Below, one piece after another: positions 53,481-64,000 of a DNA stretch of 64,000 nucleotides. Source of the stretch: Fodinibius sediminis. Its GTDB lineage: Bacteria > Bacteroidota > Rhodothermia > Balneolales > Balneolaceae. The stretch lies in NCBI RefSeq assembly GCF_900182555.1, contig NZ_FXTH01000006.1, positions 62,001 to 126,000 on the forward strand. The letters are read 5' to 3'. Position 1 is the stretch's first letter; each line of letters starts with the position of its first letter. Both the position numbers and the translations under genes were made by a program. The notes below the pieces were generated by a model, which saw nothing but the letters and a program-made list of their open reading frames with translations, did no database searches and had not been told where the DNA came from.

Positions 53481-54416
53481 ATGGAAAAAGCAATAGAATC
53501 AGTACTCGAGGGCTCTCGGGAAGCAACCATCTTAAGCAATGCTGCCACAGGCGATATTGTCAGGTGCAACAGCGCAGCCCGGGAAAAGCTGGGGAGGTCA
53601 GACACCCAGTTGCGAGGGACAAGAGTGGATGATTATTTTCAAAATCAGCGGGTCATTGGCCATAATACCATCTGGCAATGTGACCATCAGCATTTCGAGG
53701 TTGAGGAAGAAGAAGTGGTGGTTTCGGGCCGACCCTATATAAAGTCGAGTTTTAAACCCATTGACAGGGATCATTACCTGGCTTTGCTGGAGATGCAGAA
53801 GCGCATGAACAAACTGATGGTTCATCGATTAAGCTCGCCGGTGAACGGAATTGCCGGTTACCTGGAACTTTTGCAGGGCCTGGATCTTTCGGATCGCCAG
53901 CGCAGGTATGCCGCCGAGATGGAAAAAGGAGTTGATGATTTGAAAAAGGTGCTGGACCAGCTCGAGGGACTGGCAAAGGATGTGAAAGCCCATTACTCCA
54001 TGATCGATCTAGAGGATTTTACAGTTGAATTGCTTTCGGCCTACCCTCGCAGGGAGCGAAAGCGGATAGAGGTCACGCTGGACGAAAATATAGATCAGTT
54101 CAGGAGTGACAGGGCACTGCTGGGCACCATGGTACGGGAACTGCTCGATAATGCCCTTGAATTTAGCACTTCGCCCGGTGATACTGTCGATCTTCAGTTT
54201 TCAAGTGACTACCGCATTTCAATAACAAACAGCGGCATACCCATTGCCGGATCTGAAATAGACCAAATTTTTTATCCCTTCTACTCGACGAAAGCCAGGG
54301 GCGTTGGGCTGGGACTTCCCCAATGCATGCTGTACGCCCGGGAAATGGGATATGACCTCGTCCTTTCCCGGAATTCCGCCATCCGTGGCATTACCTTTGA
54401 ATTGCGCATGGGGTAA
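53481..54416 (+). CDS. PAS-domain sensor histidine kinase in the flagellar island
   Basis: A 311-aa soluble kinase without membrane helices. A PAS-like domain spans about residues 1-95. The H-box is LMVHRLSSPVNGIAGYLELL (His115), the N-box ELLDNALEF (Asn224), and the ATP-lid glycines are RGVGLGLPQ. This is the layout of FlrB/AtoS-type kinases that pair with sigma-54-dependent regulators, but no response regulator lies nearby. It has a good sigma-28-type promoter, so it may be made late, together with flagellin. Partner unknown. Confidence 0.8.
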   Translation: MEKAIESVLEGSREATILSNAATGDIVRCNSAAREKLGRSDTQLRGTRVDDYFQNQRVIGHNTIWQCDHQHFEVEEEEVVVSGRPYIKSSFKPIDRDHYLALLEMQKRMNKLMVHRLSSPVNGIAGYLELLQGLDLSDRQRRYAAEMEKGVDDLKKVLDQLEGLAKDVKAHYSMIDLEDFTVELLSAYPRRERKRIEVTLDENIDQFRSDRALLGTMVRELLDNALEFSTSPGDTVDLQFSSDYRISITNSGIPIAGSEIDQIFYPFYSTKARGVGLGLPQCMLYAREMGYDLVLSRNSAIRGITFELRMG

Positions 54417-54840: not shown

Positions 54841-55665
54841 ATGTCTTTTGGAGATATAAACAGAGTAAATACGAATATACAGGCGCTCAATGCCCGGTAT
54901 TCATTAAATAAAATCAACAGCCAGCTGGGCGACAATCAGCTCAAGCTGTCAACCGGCCTGCGCATTAACAAGGCCGAGGATGATGCGGCCGGCTTTTCCA
55001 TCGCTTCCAAGCTTTCAAGCCGTCTGGAGGGTATGGAGCAGGCGCAGCGGAATATCGGGGATGCCAAGGCCATGCTTGATGTTGCGGAGTCCGGCATGAA
55101 CTCAATTATGGATACGTTGATAGACATGAAATCCAAGGCGGTACAGGGTGCTTCCGACACGGTGGGCTCCGAAGAGCGAGGCTACATCCAGGATCAGATC
55201 AATCAGCTGGCGGCCGAAATTGACAAAATTGCAAACGGTACGGAGTTCCAGGGCAAGACGCTGCTGGATGGTACATTTGCAACTACGGGCCTTTCGTTCC
55301 AGGTTGGAGAAGGCAATGGCGATACCATGGAAGTTACAATTGCATCGCAAACCGGGGCTCCTACGTTGGGCGGCGCTACCCAGGGAGACTTCTCTTCGGC
55401 CATTACCGCAATTGATTCGGCAATTTCAAGCCTGGCGGGCGAGTTCAACCAAATTGGTATTGACCAGAATTCCCTGTCCATCAAACAGGATAACCTGGCG
55501 CAGCAGATCAATAGTAATGAATCGGCCCGAAGCCGCATTCAGGATGCTGACTTTGCCAAGCTGCAAAGCGAATCCGTCAAGCTGCAGATTATGCAGCAGA
55601 CGGCCACATCTGCATTTGCGCAGGCCAATGCCGGTCCCCAGACTGTGCTCAATTTCCTGGGCTAA
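54841..55665 (+). CDS. fliC: Flagellin
   Basis: A 274-aa filament protein made almost only of the conserved D0/D1 ends. The N-terminus has VNTNIQALNARYSLNKINSQLGDNQLKLSTGLRINKAEDDAAGFSIA and the C-terminus has ADFAKLQSESVKLQIMQQTATSAFAQANAGPQTVLNFLG. The central part is only about 60 residues and has several Ser/Thr that could be glycosylated. It has its own sigma-28-like promoter and a strong terminator. It is the only flagellin gene in the window. Confidence 0.96.
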   Translation: MSFGDINRVNTNIQALNARYSLNKINSQLGDNQLKLSTGLRINKAEDDAAGFSIASKLSSRLEGMEQAQRNIGDAKAMLDVAESGMNSIMDTLIDMKSKAVQGASDTVGSEERGYIQDQINQLAAEIDKIANGTEFQGKTLLDGTFATTGLSFQVGEGNGDTMEVTIASQTGAPTLGGATQGDFSSAITAIDSAISSLAGEFNQIGIDQNSLSIKQDNLAQQINSNESARSRIQDADFAKLQSESVKLQIMQQTATSAFAQANAGPQTVLNFLG

Positions 55666-55851: not shown

Positions 55852-56196
55852 ATGATGGAAAATCCACAGATAAAATACCAGCGACAGGCCATAAAAAACG
55901 CTTCTCCAACGGAGCTTATAAGCAAGTTGTATGATTTTGCCATTCAGGCGTGTTATCAGGAAGACGGCGAGCGGCTTAACCGAGTGCTGGAAACGCTTAT
56001 CCAGTCGCTGAATTATGACTATGAAATTGCAGGTGAACTATACGGCCTTTACGAATACTGCCAGCGACTGGCCCGTCAGAAAGAATTTGACGAAGTACGG
56101 GAGCTGCTGGAGCCTATCCGTGAGGCCTGGGAGGAAAGTGTTGTAAAGGATAAACAGGAAACGGTTAACCAGGGGGGAAGAGGCTTTGTGGTATGA
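55852..56196 (+). CDS. fliS: Flagellin chaperone FliS
   Basis: A 114-aa helical protein with the FliS N-terminus (YQRQAIKNASPTELISKLYDFAIQAC) and following helices (LIQSLNYDYEIAGELYGLYEYCQRL). FliS binds the flagellin C-terminus to stop early polymerisation. Its stop overlaps the fliD start as ATGA. Confidence 0.92.
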   Translation: MMENPQIKYQRQAIKNASPTELISKLYDFAIQACYQEDGERLNRVLETLIQSLNYDYEIAGELYGLYEYCQRLARQKEFDEVRELLEPIREAWEESVVKDKQETVNQGGRGFVV

Positions 56197-57563
56197 TTTC
56201 AACGAATACGCTTTTTCAAAATCCTTATGAAAGCTCTATCCAGCAGCTGCTGCGGATAGAGGGCATGAAGAAGGAGCAGCTGCTGGATCAGCAGGACTTC
56301 CTGCAGGACCAGATGACCGCTATTTCTGGTATCGACAGCAAGCTGTCGTCGCTGAATTCGGTACTGGAATCCTTTATCACTTCCCCCGGCGAGCAAGTGG
56401 CTCCGCTTGCCGGTCGTTCAACCAATCCGGATGCCATCGATATTGTATCCACCTCCGGGATGAGTGGTCCCGGTAATTTTACCGTGAACGTAAATCAGCT
56501 GGCCAAGCGAGATATCATGCTTTCCGATGAGGTATCTGCGACCGGTACGGATTACAATACCGGGGGCAGCGGATCCTTTGATATTGCAACCGCCAGTGGG
56601 CAGAGTGCCACCATTTCGGTAGATACCACGGGACTGAACAATCAGGAAGTCATGGAGGCTGTTGCAGCGGAGGTCAACAACCAGCTTGGTGATTTTATAA
56701 GCGCTTCCGTTATAAAGCCCCAGAGCGGGACGGCGCGTCTCTCTTTTAAAAGTGCAGAGACCGGAAAAGCCCACCGTATCAGTATCTCGAATCAGCAGGG
56801 GGATCTCGCGGCCATGAGCTTCGCCAATCATTATACAGCCGATGAGCTGAATGCCAAATTTACCATGGACGGGGTCAATTTTGAGCGGTCATCCAATCTA
56901 ATCGATGATGCGGTGGAGGGATTAACCTTTGAACTGCAGAAAGAAACGGCTGCGACGGAATCTATTGAAGTTACCCGTGATACTGAAGGCGCAAAAGAAA
57001 ATATTGAGGACTTCATTGATAAATTCAACCAGGTGAACAGCCTGATCCGTGAAAAAACGTTCCTGGATGGAGAATCGGGCAACCGGGGGCTGTTACAGGG
57101 TGAGCGGGGAATTCGGAACCTGAGCCTGACGTTGCGCAGAGAGGCTATTCTTCCGGTCAATAGCATGGACGGCTCTTCCCTTCAAAGCCTCAACGACATC
57201 GGCATCGAATTGGCACAGGACGGCACGATGTCGATAGAGGACAGCGATAAACTGACCGAGGCCCTGAACAATAATTCCGGTGAGGTCGCGCAGCTCTTCT
57301 CAGCCGATGATGGAATTGCAGCCTCATTGAAACAGCAGATCGATCGCCATGTCGAGATTGATGGGAATATTTTTGACAGTATCACAGACAGCATGGATCG
57401 CAAGATCGACCGCCTGGATGAGCGTATCCAGCGGGAAGAGGATTATCTCGTTCGCAAGGAAGAGCAGCTGCGAGCGGAATTCAATGAGCTGAACCAGGTT
57501 ATCAATCAGGGGCAGAACCAGTTTAACAGTATCTTGAATTTTCGGTCGGGCATGAGCTTTTAG
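56193..57563 (+). CDS. fliD: Filament cap protein FliD (HAP2)
   Basis: A 456-aa protein with the FliD N-terminal domain (YESSIQQLLRIEGMKKEQLLDQQDFLQDQMTAISGIDSKLSSL, GPGNFTVNVNQLAKRDIMLSDE) and a C-terminal coiled-coil domain (DRKIDRLDERIQREEDYLVRKEEQLRAEFNELNQVINQGQNQFNSIL). It caps the filament and folds flagellin into place. Confidence 0.94.
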   Translation: MISTNTLFQNPYESSIQQLLRIEGMKKEQLLDQQDFLQDQMTAISGIDSKLSSLNSVLESFITSPGEQVAPLAGRSTNPDAIDIVSTSGMSGPGNFTVNVNQLAKRDIMLSDEVSATGTDYNTGGSGSFDIATASGQSATISVDTTGLNNQEVMEAVAAEVNNQLGDFISASVIKPQSGTARLSFKSAETGKAHRISISNQQGDLAAMSFANHYTADELNAKFTMDGVNFERSSNLIDDAVEGLTFELQKETAATESIEVTRDTEGAKENIEDFIDKFNQVNSLIREKTFLDGESGNRGLLQGERGIRNLSLTLRREAILPVNSMDGSSLQSLNDIGIELAQDGTMSIEDSDKLTEALNNNSGEVAQLFSADDGIAASLKQQIDRHVEIDGNIFDSITDSMDRKIDRLDERIQREEDYLVRKEEQLRAEFNELNQVINQGQNQFNSILNFRSGMSF

Positions 57564-58590: not shown

Positions 58591-59586
58591 CTACCTATTC
58601 TCCACCATCTTCTTGAGAAGGGCATCCATGACCAGTGCTTCAAATTTTTCTATTGTCTCATTATCCGGCACCCGGTAGACATCCCGGACTGCGACCTTGC
58701 CGCTATCAAAGGCAGGTAAGTCGGATTGCCGTTGTACTTCAGCATGATCCTGCAGAAAATTGATACCATATGCTTCTTTAAGCCAATACAGATCCTCCAG
58801 GTGGTTGCTGTAGATAACGGACTGTACCCATTCCCGGAGTTGGGGAGCATGAGTGAAAGAGGGACGCATCTGCTGAATAAGCCCCAGGTGATTCTTAAAC
58901 CGGTCCTCATACTCCTGATAAAGGTGATGCTGAATTTTTTCCAGCAGCAGCATTTGTTCTATGGAGAGCGAGCTATTGCTGTCTCCGTCCGGCTTGTTTA
59001 GCCGATGATAATTCAGGCCTATTGCTTCGCATAGTGTTTGACATGAATCCATCTCTTTCTGGTACGCTATGACTTCCACCTCAAAAAAAGTTTTCCATGC
59101 CTCAATGACCGTTCTAAACTTGTTTTTCCAGCTTACGGGGTTGCAAACAAAAGATCGCGCCTTAATCATCTGTTGCTGAATGGATTTAAAATAATCAGCT
59201 GGATTTCGAATGAATACATAAACCCTGATATCAGAAAAAAAGGTGCTCAGATAAGTGTAGATATTTTCAATGTACTGTTTATTATCGATAAACAGGTATT
59301 CGGTTGAAAAAATCTGTTTGCTATAGTTGGAGGTCAGGTCTTTCTCAAGGGTGTTAAAATAAATTGTGTTTCTTCTTTTCAGCAGGCTTTTATCGACATG
59401 TTTGAACTGCCTTGGCCAATCTTCCTCATTGCTTTTGGTGGCGAAGAAAAAATGATGATGGTTTGATAAATTTCCCGGATAGATAAATCCCTGCCGGGCC
59501 AGGTTCTTGCGATTGGCGTGGAATGTGTTCTGAATAGAGGTGGTCCCTGTTTTGTAAGATCCGATATGCAGGTACAGTGTTTTCAT
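58591..59586 (-). CDS. Sulfotransferase-family protein
   Basis: A 331-aa soluble protein with the 5'-phosphosulfate-binding loop LYLHIGSYKTGTTSIQN at the N-terminus and a 3'-phosphate-binding-like segment YVFIRNPADYFKSIQQQM around residue 130. These are the two PAPS sites of the sulfotransferase superfamily. It transfers sulfate from PAPS to a carbohydrate or protein acceptor; the acceptor is unknown. It starts 30 bp after the giant TPR/OGT/FkbM gene, on the same strand, so the two probably form one unit. Converges with flgM. Confidence 0.82.
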   Translation of the reverse strand: MKTLYLHIGSYKTGTTSIQNTFHANRKNLARQGFIYPGNLSNHHHFFFATKSNEEDWPRQFKHVDKSLLKRRNTIYFNTLEKDLTSNYSKQIFSTEYLFIDNKQYIENIYTYLSTFFSDIRVYVFIRNPADYFKSIQQQMIKARSFVCNPVSWKNKFRTVIEAWKTFFEVEVIAYQKEMDSCQTLCEAIGLNYHRLNKPDGDSNSSLSIEQMLLLEKIQHHLYQEYEDRFKNHLGLIQQMRPSFTHAPQLREWVQSVIYSNHLEDLYWLKEAYGINFLQDHAEVQRQSDLPAFDSGKVAVRDVYRVPDNETIEKFEALVMDALLKKMVENR

Positions 59587-59616: not shown

Positions 59617-62600
59617 TCAGGACGTTAACAGTTTTTTATTTACATACTTGACTGTCCCAATGCCCCAGAGTTTCTGTACGTCTGCTGCATAAAGCTGAAA
59701 TCCGGATAATAGCCGGTCAATCTCTCGCCTCTCATCTTCTGAATGGTATTCAAGCATAACCACCTTTGTAGCTGCCAACAGATCCTTGAGGCCTCTGAGG
59801 ATAGCAACTTCTGCTCCTTCCGTATCGATTTTCAGTACATCTATATGAGTGACTCCTTTTTCTAAAACGGCTGCTCCTGAATGTCTTACACTTACATCAA
59901 CCTTGCTCCCACCCTTGATTGGATGTGAAGTACTGCTCTGCCCGGTATTGATGGGGTGCTGGGATAATGCTATCGTTCCGTCACTGTCACCCAGGGCTAT
60001 ATAATTCCTGGTAACATTATGAAGGTCCTGTGTGTTGAGTTCCAGCAGGGGAGTTACTTGTGGATTAGGTTCAAAACAATGGATAACGGCATTTTTATTC
60101 CACTGGCTGGCGTAGATTGCAAAGGCTCCGACATTTGCCCCTATATCAATGATGACTCCATTATCTTTAATACTGAGTCCTTCCGGTAGGGCGTACTCGT
60201 CATCTTCAAAAATGTTTTTGAGCCGGAATACTTCTTTTTCAGGAATCCTGATAGTAACGGAAGCGGTATCCCCGCCATTGTTAAAGTTTACCTTGACATT
60301 TATAATTTCAGAGGGAACACGATAATCGCTGTTGGCTGTTGCTGAATCAGCGGTTTTTTCTTTCAATGGATCCCAGAACCAGCGATTATGATCCGTATCC
60401 AGGGCCGGGTCGTTCAGATTGTTCTTCCTCAGCCGGATTGTTGCCCGGGTGATTGTCAACGTTTCCGGGTTGTCCTCGAGGGCCTCAAGCATTTGAAGGG
60501 TTTGCTTTCCACCCAGGTAGCCGGTCGGCTCTCTCAGCAGAACCCACGCCTCGGCAATGCGCACTGTCAGCCACTGGGAGAATGTGGTTTCTATTTCTGC
60601 CTGGTCCTGGTCTGGCAGTGGAAGGAAAAAGGGCAGATGGACATCCAGCAGTGTGCTGTCCTCGGTATCCATCCTTTCCATCAGGTCGTCCATTATTTCA
60701 ACGGCCTGATTTCGTTTGCCCAGTTGCGCCATGACCCGGGCCAGGGTTAGTGCCACAGCCGGGGTTGTGTTACCTTCGTTGTAGAGCTTGACAAGCTTAC
60801 GCGCCGCGGCAAGCATGAGGCTCCCTTTCTGTGAGGCGGCGGTCGGCCTGGTCTCGCTGTCGATCTCAATCTGCTCGGCAGTACTAAGCAGGTTCAAAGC
60901 ATGTGCATATTCCCCCTGTTGATTGGGGGCAAGTTGCTGCTCCCAGTGATCAAGCAGTCCGGTAGTCCATGGGAATGCGCCCAGCAACTCTTTCCAGGAC
61001 GTTTCTACGGCTTCTTCGCCTGGGGTATCTTTCTTATAAATCCAGCCCTCCTGCTCAAGCTGTTGCCTCTTTTCCAAAGGTACTGCGACAAGATTCATCA
61101 GGTAGGGATCCACCTTCTCTCCCGCTTCATGATCAGCAAGCAGGGATAACCCCGGGATATATTCGAAGAGTTCATAGTTGAGGGAATGAATGCTCTGATG
61201 GAGGTCTCTGAGACTTTCAGCTCCCTGTCCCAGCGAAAGCAGAAGGAGGGGGCGGTCGGCTTCCAGCAGCTGTTGGCCGCCCTGCAGGGCTTCGGTTTCC
61301 ATGCCGTTAATATCCAGTTTGACAAGATCCACCGCCGGCTGGCCTGCAAAGGTCCACCAGGCATCGAGGGTTGTCAGGGACACCCCTTCGTCTCCTTCTT
61401 CGTCAATGGCATTCAGCTCGGGCGTGTGTGCATGGTGCAGCATCGCCGGGCCGGTTTCTGCACCAAGTCCTCGCCTGTTTACCTCCAGCTGGTCAAAGTT
61501 ATTTACCAGTTTGCTTTTTTCGAGGTAAGAAGCCGTTTCGGAAGCCGGTTCAAAGGCGTAGACGGCTCCTGTGTCGCCTGCAATTTTTGCCATCGGGAGG
61601 GCATAGGCTCCAAATCCCGCACCGGCATCCACTACCCGCATGCCGGGCTGCAGGTAATCCCGGATGAAATCCAGTTCCGGCTCGAACCACTGCTCCTGTT
61701 CCAGCAGTACGTATGGAGTCAACAGTTCAAGGTCTGGTGGTGTACAAACCGTCACACCATCCTTGGTTTCTATCTTAAACACTTCAGGCCGATCATCATT
61801 ATCTTCCTTGTTGGGAGTAATGCTATTTTTGATTCCTTGATCTGTTGATATCGAATTCATGTTACTGTTCCAAGCTTTTGTTTCGTGATCTGTTGTGATT
61901 TGCTGCTGTTTCACCACATCGGCCTCCACAGACTTGTCACTTTCCTTATGTTCGGTTTTATTCGTCGCTTCCTCTACTTTAGTCAGTGCTGCGTATTCAT
62001 TAATTTCTTGCTCCGACAGTGTTTCTACATCAATGTGGGCCTGCCAATTCTCGATATTATTTTCATATCCATCGACCCACTGTCTCCACATTTCCCGTAA
62101 TGCAATGGAAAGGTGAGCTCCGAATCGCCGGCCGTTGCAAAGAGGTGCGTTCTCAACTTGCTCTCGCATCGACTGGCGAAGCCTTGTCAAATGTTTTTGG
62201 TCCTTTGCCAAATTAACGGCAGTTTCGACATACTCATCCCAGGAATCCGTAACCCAATCAGCGAAACCCGCATTCGTCAAATGGGTGGCGGAGTGGCGTC
62301 CCGCAAAGGTGGGCCCCGGTTTGGTTACCACCGGCACTCCCATATACAGGGCCTCACAGGTCGTAAGTCCCCCGGAATAGGGCCAGGGATCAAGGGCGAT
62401 ATCAACCTGGTTGTAGTGGGACAGATGATCCTTGTGATTCGATTCTCCCCGGAAGGTCACCCGGTCTGCAGCTATGCCCGCCGATTCCAGGGGTTTGATA
62501 ATTCTTTCCCGGAGTGTCTTGGTTTCGTACTGCTTGCTTTTTAGCAGCAGTCGGCTGCGGGGCACGCTTTTCATGATGCTTGCCCAGCGCCCCAGGATAT

Positions 62601-64000
62601 CAGGGTTTACCTTGGATGGATTGTTAAAACATCCGAATGTTATAAAGTCGTTTTCCAGCGCGGGCAGGGGTTCTATCTTCGGGACATAATCCGGGGGGAG
62701 ATAGCAGATATAGTCATCCGGCATGCGCACCAGCTTCTCGGTATAAAAAGCTTCCTCGCCGGCCGGGCTTTCATACTGGTCGGTGATAAGGTAGTCCACC
62801 GCCTGCAGGCCGGTGGTATTGAACAGCCCGCCCACCCACTTCACTATGACCGGGGCGGGCTCCATGGCTATGGTCCGGAGCCGGTTGTCGGCCGCATGGC
62901 CAGACAGTTCAACCAGGATATCAATCTCATCATCGCGGATCATGCCGGCAATAATTTCATCATTATAACCGATGACCGATTGCCATTTATCGGCCCGGCG
63001 GTGGAGCCGCTGTGTTATCCAGTCGAATTTGTTGTTCGTGGTATAGCAGTATATTTCGAATTGGTCGGCCGGGAGATTTTCAAGTCCAGGGGTTATCATC
63101 CATCCAACGGGATGCATCTTAAGCCCTCCTGAAATCAAGCCAATCCGTATTTTTTTATCAGGATCTATATTTTGGGGTATCGGTCTTTTGGGTTGGTTTT
63201 CGGGAGCAAAATGCTGATCCCAAAGTTTGTGGGCATTAAAAATTTCCTTCCGGCTCCGCTCAGGGTTATAATGAATGCACATCAGATAGCTGGAAAGACA
63301 CTGGTATTGATCCGGTTCATCCTGCAGGGCCTGTAGATAATGACGTTCGGCTTCATCAAGCTGTCCCACTTCCTGAAGACACAGGGCATAGTTCTGCCGT
63401 ACATTGGCGTTGCCGGGGTGTTCCTCCAGCAGATCTCGGCAAAGCTTCAGTGCTTTGGGGTAATCCCCTTTCTGCCGGTACAAATCAGCAAAAGTTGATT
63501 GCGCAGGGATGCTCTCCGGCTTCTCTGCAATGATGAGTTCAAGGTGCTCTTCTGCTTCGCCGAAGCGTTTTTTTTCAATTAGCAGCTGCGCAATGGCCGC
63601 CCTGCTAATATGGTTGTCCGGATGCTGTTCAATGCTGTATTGAAACAGTTCAAGGGCTTTATCCAGCTGTCCCTGATCGCGGTATATTTCTGCGATCTTG
63701 TGAGCCAGTTCTACATTGTTCGGTTCGATGTTAACAGCTTCCTGATAGCATGTCAGTGCTTCCCGCAATTTCGCCTGGGCCCGGTATACCGACCCCAGAT
63801 GCACCCATGCCTTGTAAAGATCTTCGTTCTCCAGGGCCCTCCTGGAATAGGTTTCTGCTTCTTCGAAGGACCTCAGGTTGTAATGGCATATTGATATGGC
63901 ATGATAAATTCTGGCTTTGTCGCTGCTTTCGCAGAGCGCTTTCTGAAGCCATCGCAAGGCTGTTTTGAATGCTCGTTTATGTATGTAGGCGATGCCGATG
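59617..64000 (-). CDS. Giant TPR / O-GlcNAc-transferase-like / double FkbM methyltransferase fusion (5'-truncated)
   Basis: At least 1460 residues; the frame runs open off the right edge, so the start is missing. Counting from the internal TTG at 63957: residues 1-225 are TPRs (for example WVHLGSVYRAQAKLREALTCYQEA). Residues ~268-630 are a SPINDLY/O-GlcNAc-transferase catalytic region (VELSGHAADNRL, TFGCFNNPSKVNPDILGRWA, IALDPWPYSGGLTTCEALYMG). Residues ~730-960 are one FkbM methyltransferase (RVVDAGAGFGAYALPMA, VDLVKLDINGMETEAL). A helical linker follows, then a second FkbM domain at ~1219-1446 (VIIDIGANVGAFAIY, IDVLKIDTEGAEVAIL). Place beside flagellin suggests flagellin glycan synthesis and O-methylation. 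Confidence 0.85.
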   Translation of the reverse strand, partial: IGIAYIHKRAFKTALRWLQKALCESSDKARIYHAISICHYNLRSFEEAETYSRRALENEDLYKAWVHLGSVYRAQAKLREALTCYQEAVNIEPNNVELAHKIAEIYRDQGQLDKALELFQYSIEQHPDNHISRAAIAQLLIEKKRFGEAEEHLELIIAEKPESIPAQSTFADLYRQKGDYPKALKLCRDLLEEHPGNANVRQNYALCLQEVGQLDEAERHYLQALQDEPDQYQCLSSYLMCIHYNPERSRKEIFNAHKLWDQHFAPENQPKRPIPQNIDPDKKIRIGLISGGLKMHPVGWMITPGLENLPADQFEIYCYTTNNKFDWITQRLHRRADKWQSVIGYNDEIIAGMIRDDEIDILVELSGHAADNRLRTIAMEPAPVIVKWVGGLFNTTGLQAVDYLITDQYESPAGEEAFYTEKLVRMPDDYICYLPPDYVPKIEPLPALENDFITFGCFNNPSKVNPDILGRWASIMKSVPRSRLLLKSKQYETKTLRERIIKPLESAGIAADRVTFRGESNHKDHLSHYNQVDIALDPWPYSGGLTTCEALYMGVPVVTKPGPTFAGRHSATHLTNAGFADWVTDSWDEYVETAVNLAKDQKHLTRLRQSMREQVENAPLCNGRRFGAHLSIALREMWRQWVDGYENNIENWQAHIDVETLSEQEINEYAALTKVEEATNKTEHKESDKSVEADVVKQQQITTDHETKAWNSNMNSISTDQGIKNSITPNKEDNDDRPEVFKIETKDGVTVCTPPDLELLTPYVLLEQEQWFEPELDFIRDYLQPGMRVVDAGAGFGAYALPMAKIAGDTGAVYAFEPASETASYLEKSKLVNNFDQLEVNRRGLGAETGPAMLHHAHTPELNAIDEEGDEGVSLTTLDAWWTFAGQPAVDLVKLDINGMETEALQGGQQLLEADRPLLLLSLGQGAESLRDLHQSIHSLNYELFEYIPGLSLLADHEAGEKVDPYLMNLVAVPLEKRQQLEQEGWIYKKDTPGEEAVETSWKELLGAFPWTTGLLDHWEQQLAPNQQGEYAHALNLLSTAEQIEIDSETRPTAASQKGSLMLAAARKLVKLYNEGNTTPAVALTLARVMAQLGKRNQAVEIMDDLMERMDTEDSTLLDVHLPFFLPLPDQDQAEIETTFSQWLTVRIAEAWVLLREPTGYLGGKQTLQMLEALEDNPETLTITRATIRLRKNNLNDPALDTDHNRWFWDPLKEKTADSATANSDYRVPSEIINVKVNFNNGGDTASVTIRIPEKEVFRLKNIFEDDEYALPEGLSIKDNGVIIDIGANVGAFAIYASQWNKNAVIHCFEPNPQVTPLLELNTQDLHNVTRNYIALGDSDGTIALSQHPINTGQSSTSHPIKGGSKVDVSVRHSGAAVLEKGVTHIDVLKIDTEGAEVAILRGLKDLLAATKVVMLEYHSEDERREIDRLLSGFQLYAADVQKLWGIGTVKYVNKKLLTS

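Follow-up and report, generated by a model that had tools for sequence, protein, structure and literature searches.

The stretch of DNA analysed here (the window, 64,000 nucleotides of Fodinibius sediminis, genus Fodinibius, of the salt-loving Balneolota; G000:C6:62001-126000) carries at its end a gene for a large multidomain protein, which we interpret, at a probability of roughly 0.7, as an O-glycosyltransferase that acts on flagellin in the cytoplasm and is fused to its own tailoring enzymes. We favour flagellin glycosylation with fused tailoring because gene order, joint occurrence with flagellin and the conservation of active-site residues point the same way. In addition, the part of the protein beyond residue ~1240 has in relatives repeatedly been replaced by other sugar-tailoring or sugar-adding enzymes. 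The gene is laid out as follows, with domains assigned by Pfam and NCBIfam profile searches:

59617-64000, minus strand: multidomain protein gene, 1,460 amino acids in the window and 42 N-terminal residues past the window edge (start at G000:C6:126125)
63283-64000, minus strand: TPR region, residues ~17-281 of the full protein (Pfam TPR_19, TPR_2, TPR_16 and others)
62116-63171, minus strand: GT41 catalytic domain, residues ~320-670 (PF13844), containing H338, K505 and Y583
61831-62013, minus strand: polar low-complexity linker, residues ~705-765, recognised from the sequence
61171-61629, minus strand: FkbM methyltransferase domain 1 (FkbM1), residues ~830-985 (PF05050, E-value 4.8e-13)
60406-61128, minus strand: all-helical TPR-like tail of FkbM1, ~240 residues (weak TPR_19 match, E-value 1.7e-4)
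60398-60403, minus strand: sharp drop in GC content at third codon positions (GC3) at codon ~1242, the border between the shared front part and the exchanged C-terminal module
59734-60147, minus strand: FkbM methyltransferase domain 2 (FkbM2), the exchanged module, residues ~1324-1464 (PF05050, E-value 5.9e-16)

An earlier note on this DNA had described one continuous frame joining TPRs, an OGT/SPINDLY-type region and two FkbM domains, and this description holds. The open reading frame is uninterrupted, and flanking DNA from the assembly completes it to 1,502 amino acids with a TTG start and no internal stop (L003:9618-14126). The TPR profiles, PF13844 (E-value 7e-42, split in two stretches) and PF05050 (E-value 5e-29 overall, two stretches; 60.4 and 51.0 bits in the genome search versus a cut-off of 22.7) all match, and each FkbM domain has, as claimed, its own glycine motif for S-adenosylmethionine (SAM), VVDAGAGFG at 831 and VIIDIGANVG at 1324. 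Within the whole genome, GT41 and FkbM matches are confined to this protein. That an assembly or frame error has joined separate genes is hardly credible and was rejected because independent genomes show the same fusion: five relatives (L039, L040, L044, L058 and L060; ~40-49% identity) encode an identically colinear protein, and the frame is stop-free with coding composition along its entire length. The TPR-GT41 part by itself finds matches at 41-54% identity in several families of the order.

The connection to the flagellum is evident from both gene order and distribution. The flagellar genes concerned are:

54841-55665, plus strand: flagellin, the presumed acceptor, 274 amino acids (PF00669, PF00700)
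55852-57563, plus strand: fliS and fliD, which in relatives are divergent from the orthologue of the large gene

The large gene ends 3.95 kb from the end of the flagellin gene at 55665, in line with the distance of about 4 kb given before. No other filament flagellin was found in the genome; its remaining PF00669 match is FlgL-like. Among 129 genomes of the order, an orthologue of the large gene was present in 38 of the 52 that are flagellin-positive (PF00669) and in none of the 77 that are flagellin-negative (Fisher p 2.5e-21, with genomes treated as independent though related); a 652-amino-acid TPR-GT41 protein with 32% identity (G016) was left out of this count. In relatives from several families, the gene is divergent from fliS-fliD and near a fleQ-like regulator gene, flagellins mostly lying on its other side, and between the large gene and flagellin lie genes for a DegT aminotransferase, WbqC, a hexapeptide transferase, a nucleotidyltransferase, a methyltransferase and a sulfotransferase. 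Such a set of genes characterises a flagellin glycosylation island. The window has a different arrangement, with flagellin, fliS and fliD in front; the large gene reads toward these three, and the fleQ-like gene is its back-to-back neighbour. In one relative (G113:C175:14968-16983) a TPR-GT41 gene contains an in-frame TAA, which may reflect gene decay or a mistake in the assembly.

Since the gene neighbours fliD and fliS in addition to flagellin, and the acceptor role of flagellin is presumed, another flagellar protein or a cell-surface polymer could be the acceptor instead. We consider this improbable, given the strict absence of the gene from flagellin-negative genomes, the nature of GT41 enzymes as protein glycosyltransferases and the precedent of FlmG of Caulobacter, in which flagellins are bound by the TPR part and receive their sugar, in the cytoplasm, from the glycosyltransferase part (PMC7591256).

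Among solved structures, those closest to the GT41 part are Arabidopsis SPINDLY (7y4i, E-value 1.6e-87, the alignment spanning residues 5-398 of 411) and Thermobaculum TtOGT (5djs, E-value 1.5e-84), with human OGT ranking behind. H338 and K505, which correspond to H498 and K842 of OGT and to H495 and K665 of SPINDLY, are invariant in all 23 aligned sequences. Position 583, equivalent to C917 of OGT and Y744 of SPINDLY, is tyrosine in 22 of the 23; in the SPINDLY structure paper this position is proposed to restrict the size of the donor, a tyrosine there leaving a poor fit for UDP-GlcNAc (PMC9715652). Tyr583, as in SPINDLY and not Cys as in human OGT, argues against assuming a GlcNAc donor, and the donor sugar is therefore best left open. 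The earlier label 'O-GlcNAc-transferase-like' is not to be taken as a statement about the donor. A sigma-54-type, fleQ-like regulator gene is nearby here and in related genomes, which could suggest a GmaR-like bifunctional regulator of flagellar genes for which glycosylation is secondary; however, the glycosyltransferase active-site residues are intact, no DNA-binding or MogR-type partner was seen, and the extra enzyme modules would be ill-suited to a regulator, making this explanation very unlikely.

Comparison with relatives showed that the front part of the protein (about residues 1-1240) is common to them and conserved throughout the order, and that the C-terminal modules beyond ~1240 differ. 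The earlier note's architecture with two FkbM domains is therefore present in this protein but represents one version only, relatives carrying other C-terminal enzymes. The modules found at the individual loci, L003 being the gene of this window, are:

FkbM2: L003, L039, L040, L044, L058, L060
GT2 plus GT1-like: L041, L046, L047
GT2 plus an unassigned part: L051
GT1-like: L043, L052, L055
GT2 plus class I methyltransferase: L042, L045
APH-like kinase: L057
methyltransferase plus kinase-like: L059
weak kinase-like: L056
GT56: L050

FkbM1 and its tail are retained in most orthologues. Mapped onto a tree built from TPR-GT41, the module types require at least 13 changes, a figure that depends on fine-grained module labels and does not count independent transfers. 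Strongly supported tree neighbours carry different modules (L050/L053, L055/L057, L040/L042+L045). At L053, FkbM2 is fused straight to GT41 without FkbM1 and its tail, and the neighbouring gene encodes a 561-amino-acid TPR-GT56 protein, whereas at L050 the GT56 is fused. Base composition also changes: in 18 of 19 proteins the module has a lower GC3 than the TPR-GT41 part (means 0.34 versus 0.49; Wilcoxon p 2.7e-5, indicative since the rows are related), and the strongest GC3 break of the present gene falls at codon 1242, with 1 of 500 permutations equally strong. These data are compatible, at about even odds in our judgement, with a vertically kept TPR-GT41-FkbM front to which horizontally acquired cassettes (methyltransferase, sugar transferases, kinase-like) were joined in frame at a single boundary. 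In that view a single gene would vary the outer part of the flagellar glycan, in a way comparable to O-antigen loci or polymorphic toxins. In F. roseus (G011), where the large protein has a GT2 plus GT1-like tail, a broken FkbM2 remnant lies on another contig (L062:181-540; G011:C37:199-864).

FkbM1 and FkbM2 share 27% identity, so that a recent duplication of FkbM2 as the origin of FkbM1 is ruled out. FkbM1 and its helical tail form one unit, because the pair exists as a stand-alone 489-amino-acid protein in two Burkholderiales genomes (L064, L065; 28-29% identity). An AlphaFold2 model of FkbM1 and tail from four sequences has a helical tail, at low confidence (mean predicted local distance difference test score 48). 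At two loci, a second gene adjoining the large one combines an FkbM1-type domain, the tail and a GT1-like module (L041:3808-6552, L046:3277-6021), showing that the unit also moves separately.

Several points weigh against the interpretation as a flagellin glycosyltransferase with fused, exchangeable tailoring enzymes. FkbM2 has the motifs DIGANVG (motif I) and DTEGAE (DxEGxE), and FkbM1 has DAGAGFG and DINGME, that is, DxNGxE in place of DxEGxE, with the asparagine found in 18 of 20 aligned sequences; FkbM1 may thus be altered or non-catalytic. Among carriers of FkbM2, its identity follows that of the core, indicating that within close pairs it was inherited, not swapped, and that exchange is rare on short time scales. 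Furthermore, 14 flagellin-positive genomes lack the gene, and described Fodinibius species are reported to be non-motile, their flagellar genes apparently forming an incomplete set (PMC9909488), so that filament production is a prediction. The order-wide retention of the gene together with flagellin speaks for function, short of proof.

The near-invariant asparagine, together with L053 and the L054 line, which consists of TPR-GT41 only, also leaves some room for the GT41 domain glycosylating flagellin while the FkbM domains act elsewhere, FkbM1 as a non-catalytic scaffold and the other as a methyltransferase whose target is a protein residue or a sugar nucleotide in free form, instead of the glycan on flagellin. 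We regard this as possible but rather unlikely, as FkbM1 keeps motif I plus the Asp and final Glu of DxEGxE and is retained in most orthologues, and as other tailoring enzymes occupy the FkbM2 position in relatives. Because these enzymes replace FkbM2 at the same place, the module would be expected to act on the same product.

The window holds two further features:

58591-59586, minus strand: putative sulfotransferase gene, immediately downstream of the large one (motifs; weak Sulfotransfer_4)
53481-54416, divergent from flgB: small PAS-histidine kinase gene between flgB and flagellin

The putative sulfotransferase is the sole sugar-tailoring neighbour of the large gene in the window. A Pfam search gave no match at the cut-off, Sulfotransfer_4 remaining weak below it, but HIGSYKTGTTSIQ-type and RxPxDYxxS-type motifs are kept in four homologues, each adjoining an orthologue of the large gene. 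Sulfotransferase genes recur beside the large gene in several genomes (window 58591-59586, L047:909-3844, L042:13356-14048), which suggests sulfated flagellin glycans.

In the mechanism that we propose for fused tailoring, the TPR superhelix would bind flagellin before export, by analogy with FlmG, and the GT41 domain, judging from its fold and conserved residues, would add the first sugar to surface Ser/Thr. The C-terminal domains would modify this sugar or following ones, acting while the product is held. For this strain we propose methylation of the glycan by FkbM2, with FkbM1 as a possible contributor, and perhaps subsequent sulfation through the neighbouring putative sulfotransferase. The outcome would be a filament with a common inner glycan and a strain-specific outer end.

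Fusions of this kind are already known, because GT41-methyltransferase proteins have been published from enterobacterial flagellin glycosylation islands: GT41 enzymes with methyltransferase domains are reported from nearly all GT41-bearing islands of Enterobacteriaceae (PMC4875605). The earlier note held that known bacterial OGT-like flagellin glycosyltransferases are not fused to two FkbM domains; that form is apparently new, but the kind of fusion is not. The enterobacterial islands share the fusion of GT41 to a SAM methyltransferase beside flagellin genes and the variable tailoring genes around it, but belong to Gammaproteobacteria and have the methyltransferase given as AdoMet_MTases cd02440, and the sections read report neither C-terminal exchange nor two FkbM domains. 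FlmG, a soluble flagellin O-glycosyltransferase, likewise combines N-terminal TPRs with a C-terminal GT-B transferase, but has 596 amino acids, lacks fused tailoring domains and transfers pseudaminic acid (PMC7591256). The type B GT2 of C. difficile (CDR20291_0242) is a flagellin glycosyltransferase with a fused methyltransferase for which methylated rhamnose was proposed, but it consists of PF00535 and PF08241 domains without TPR or GT41 (PMC5207246). SPINDLY and TtOGT share the TPR and GT41 fold, the Tyr at the donor-size position and, for SPINDLY, the catalytic Lys, but have no methyltransferase and are not flagellar. Sequential action of sugar transferases and a sugar O-methyltransferase of one polypeptide on one glycan has been demonstrated for chlorovirus A064R, whose domains are unrelated and whose target is the N-glycan of a viral capsid protein (PMC9614988).

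A search for the full architecture in 395 genomes of the phylum found, outside the order, TPR-GT41 matches only. A scan of named genomes returned only F. roseus and the two Burkholderiales stand-alone FkbM1-tail proteins, and the best plasmid matches were TPR-GT41 only, without the full architecture. Family f26 of the phylum has single frames of 2,700-3,500 amino acids with tandem TPR-GT41 units (L078:350-10900, L080:3779-12412, L079:3-8165), the two that were scanned having 6-8 GT41 stretches each. No paper on flagellar glycosylation in Balneola or Fodinibius was found among the open-access papers searched. As far as those papers show, three features are new: the presence throughout flagellated Balneolota, the pair of FkbM domains and the module exchange at a fixed boundary.

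If our interpretation is correct, a single gene encodes the greater part of a flagellin glycan pathway, and this in a phylum for which our searches found no description of flagellar glycosylation. Its C-terminus would vary by in-frame cassette exchange, the C-terminal module would predict the outer sugar, and the orthologues would constitute a natural series of working enzyme fusions for glycoengineering. The result would also bear on the claim that the flagellar system of Fodinibius is decaying and non-functional. Module exchange would probably yield a strain-specific flagellar coat and would likely serve to vary the surface against phages or grazers.

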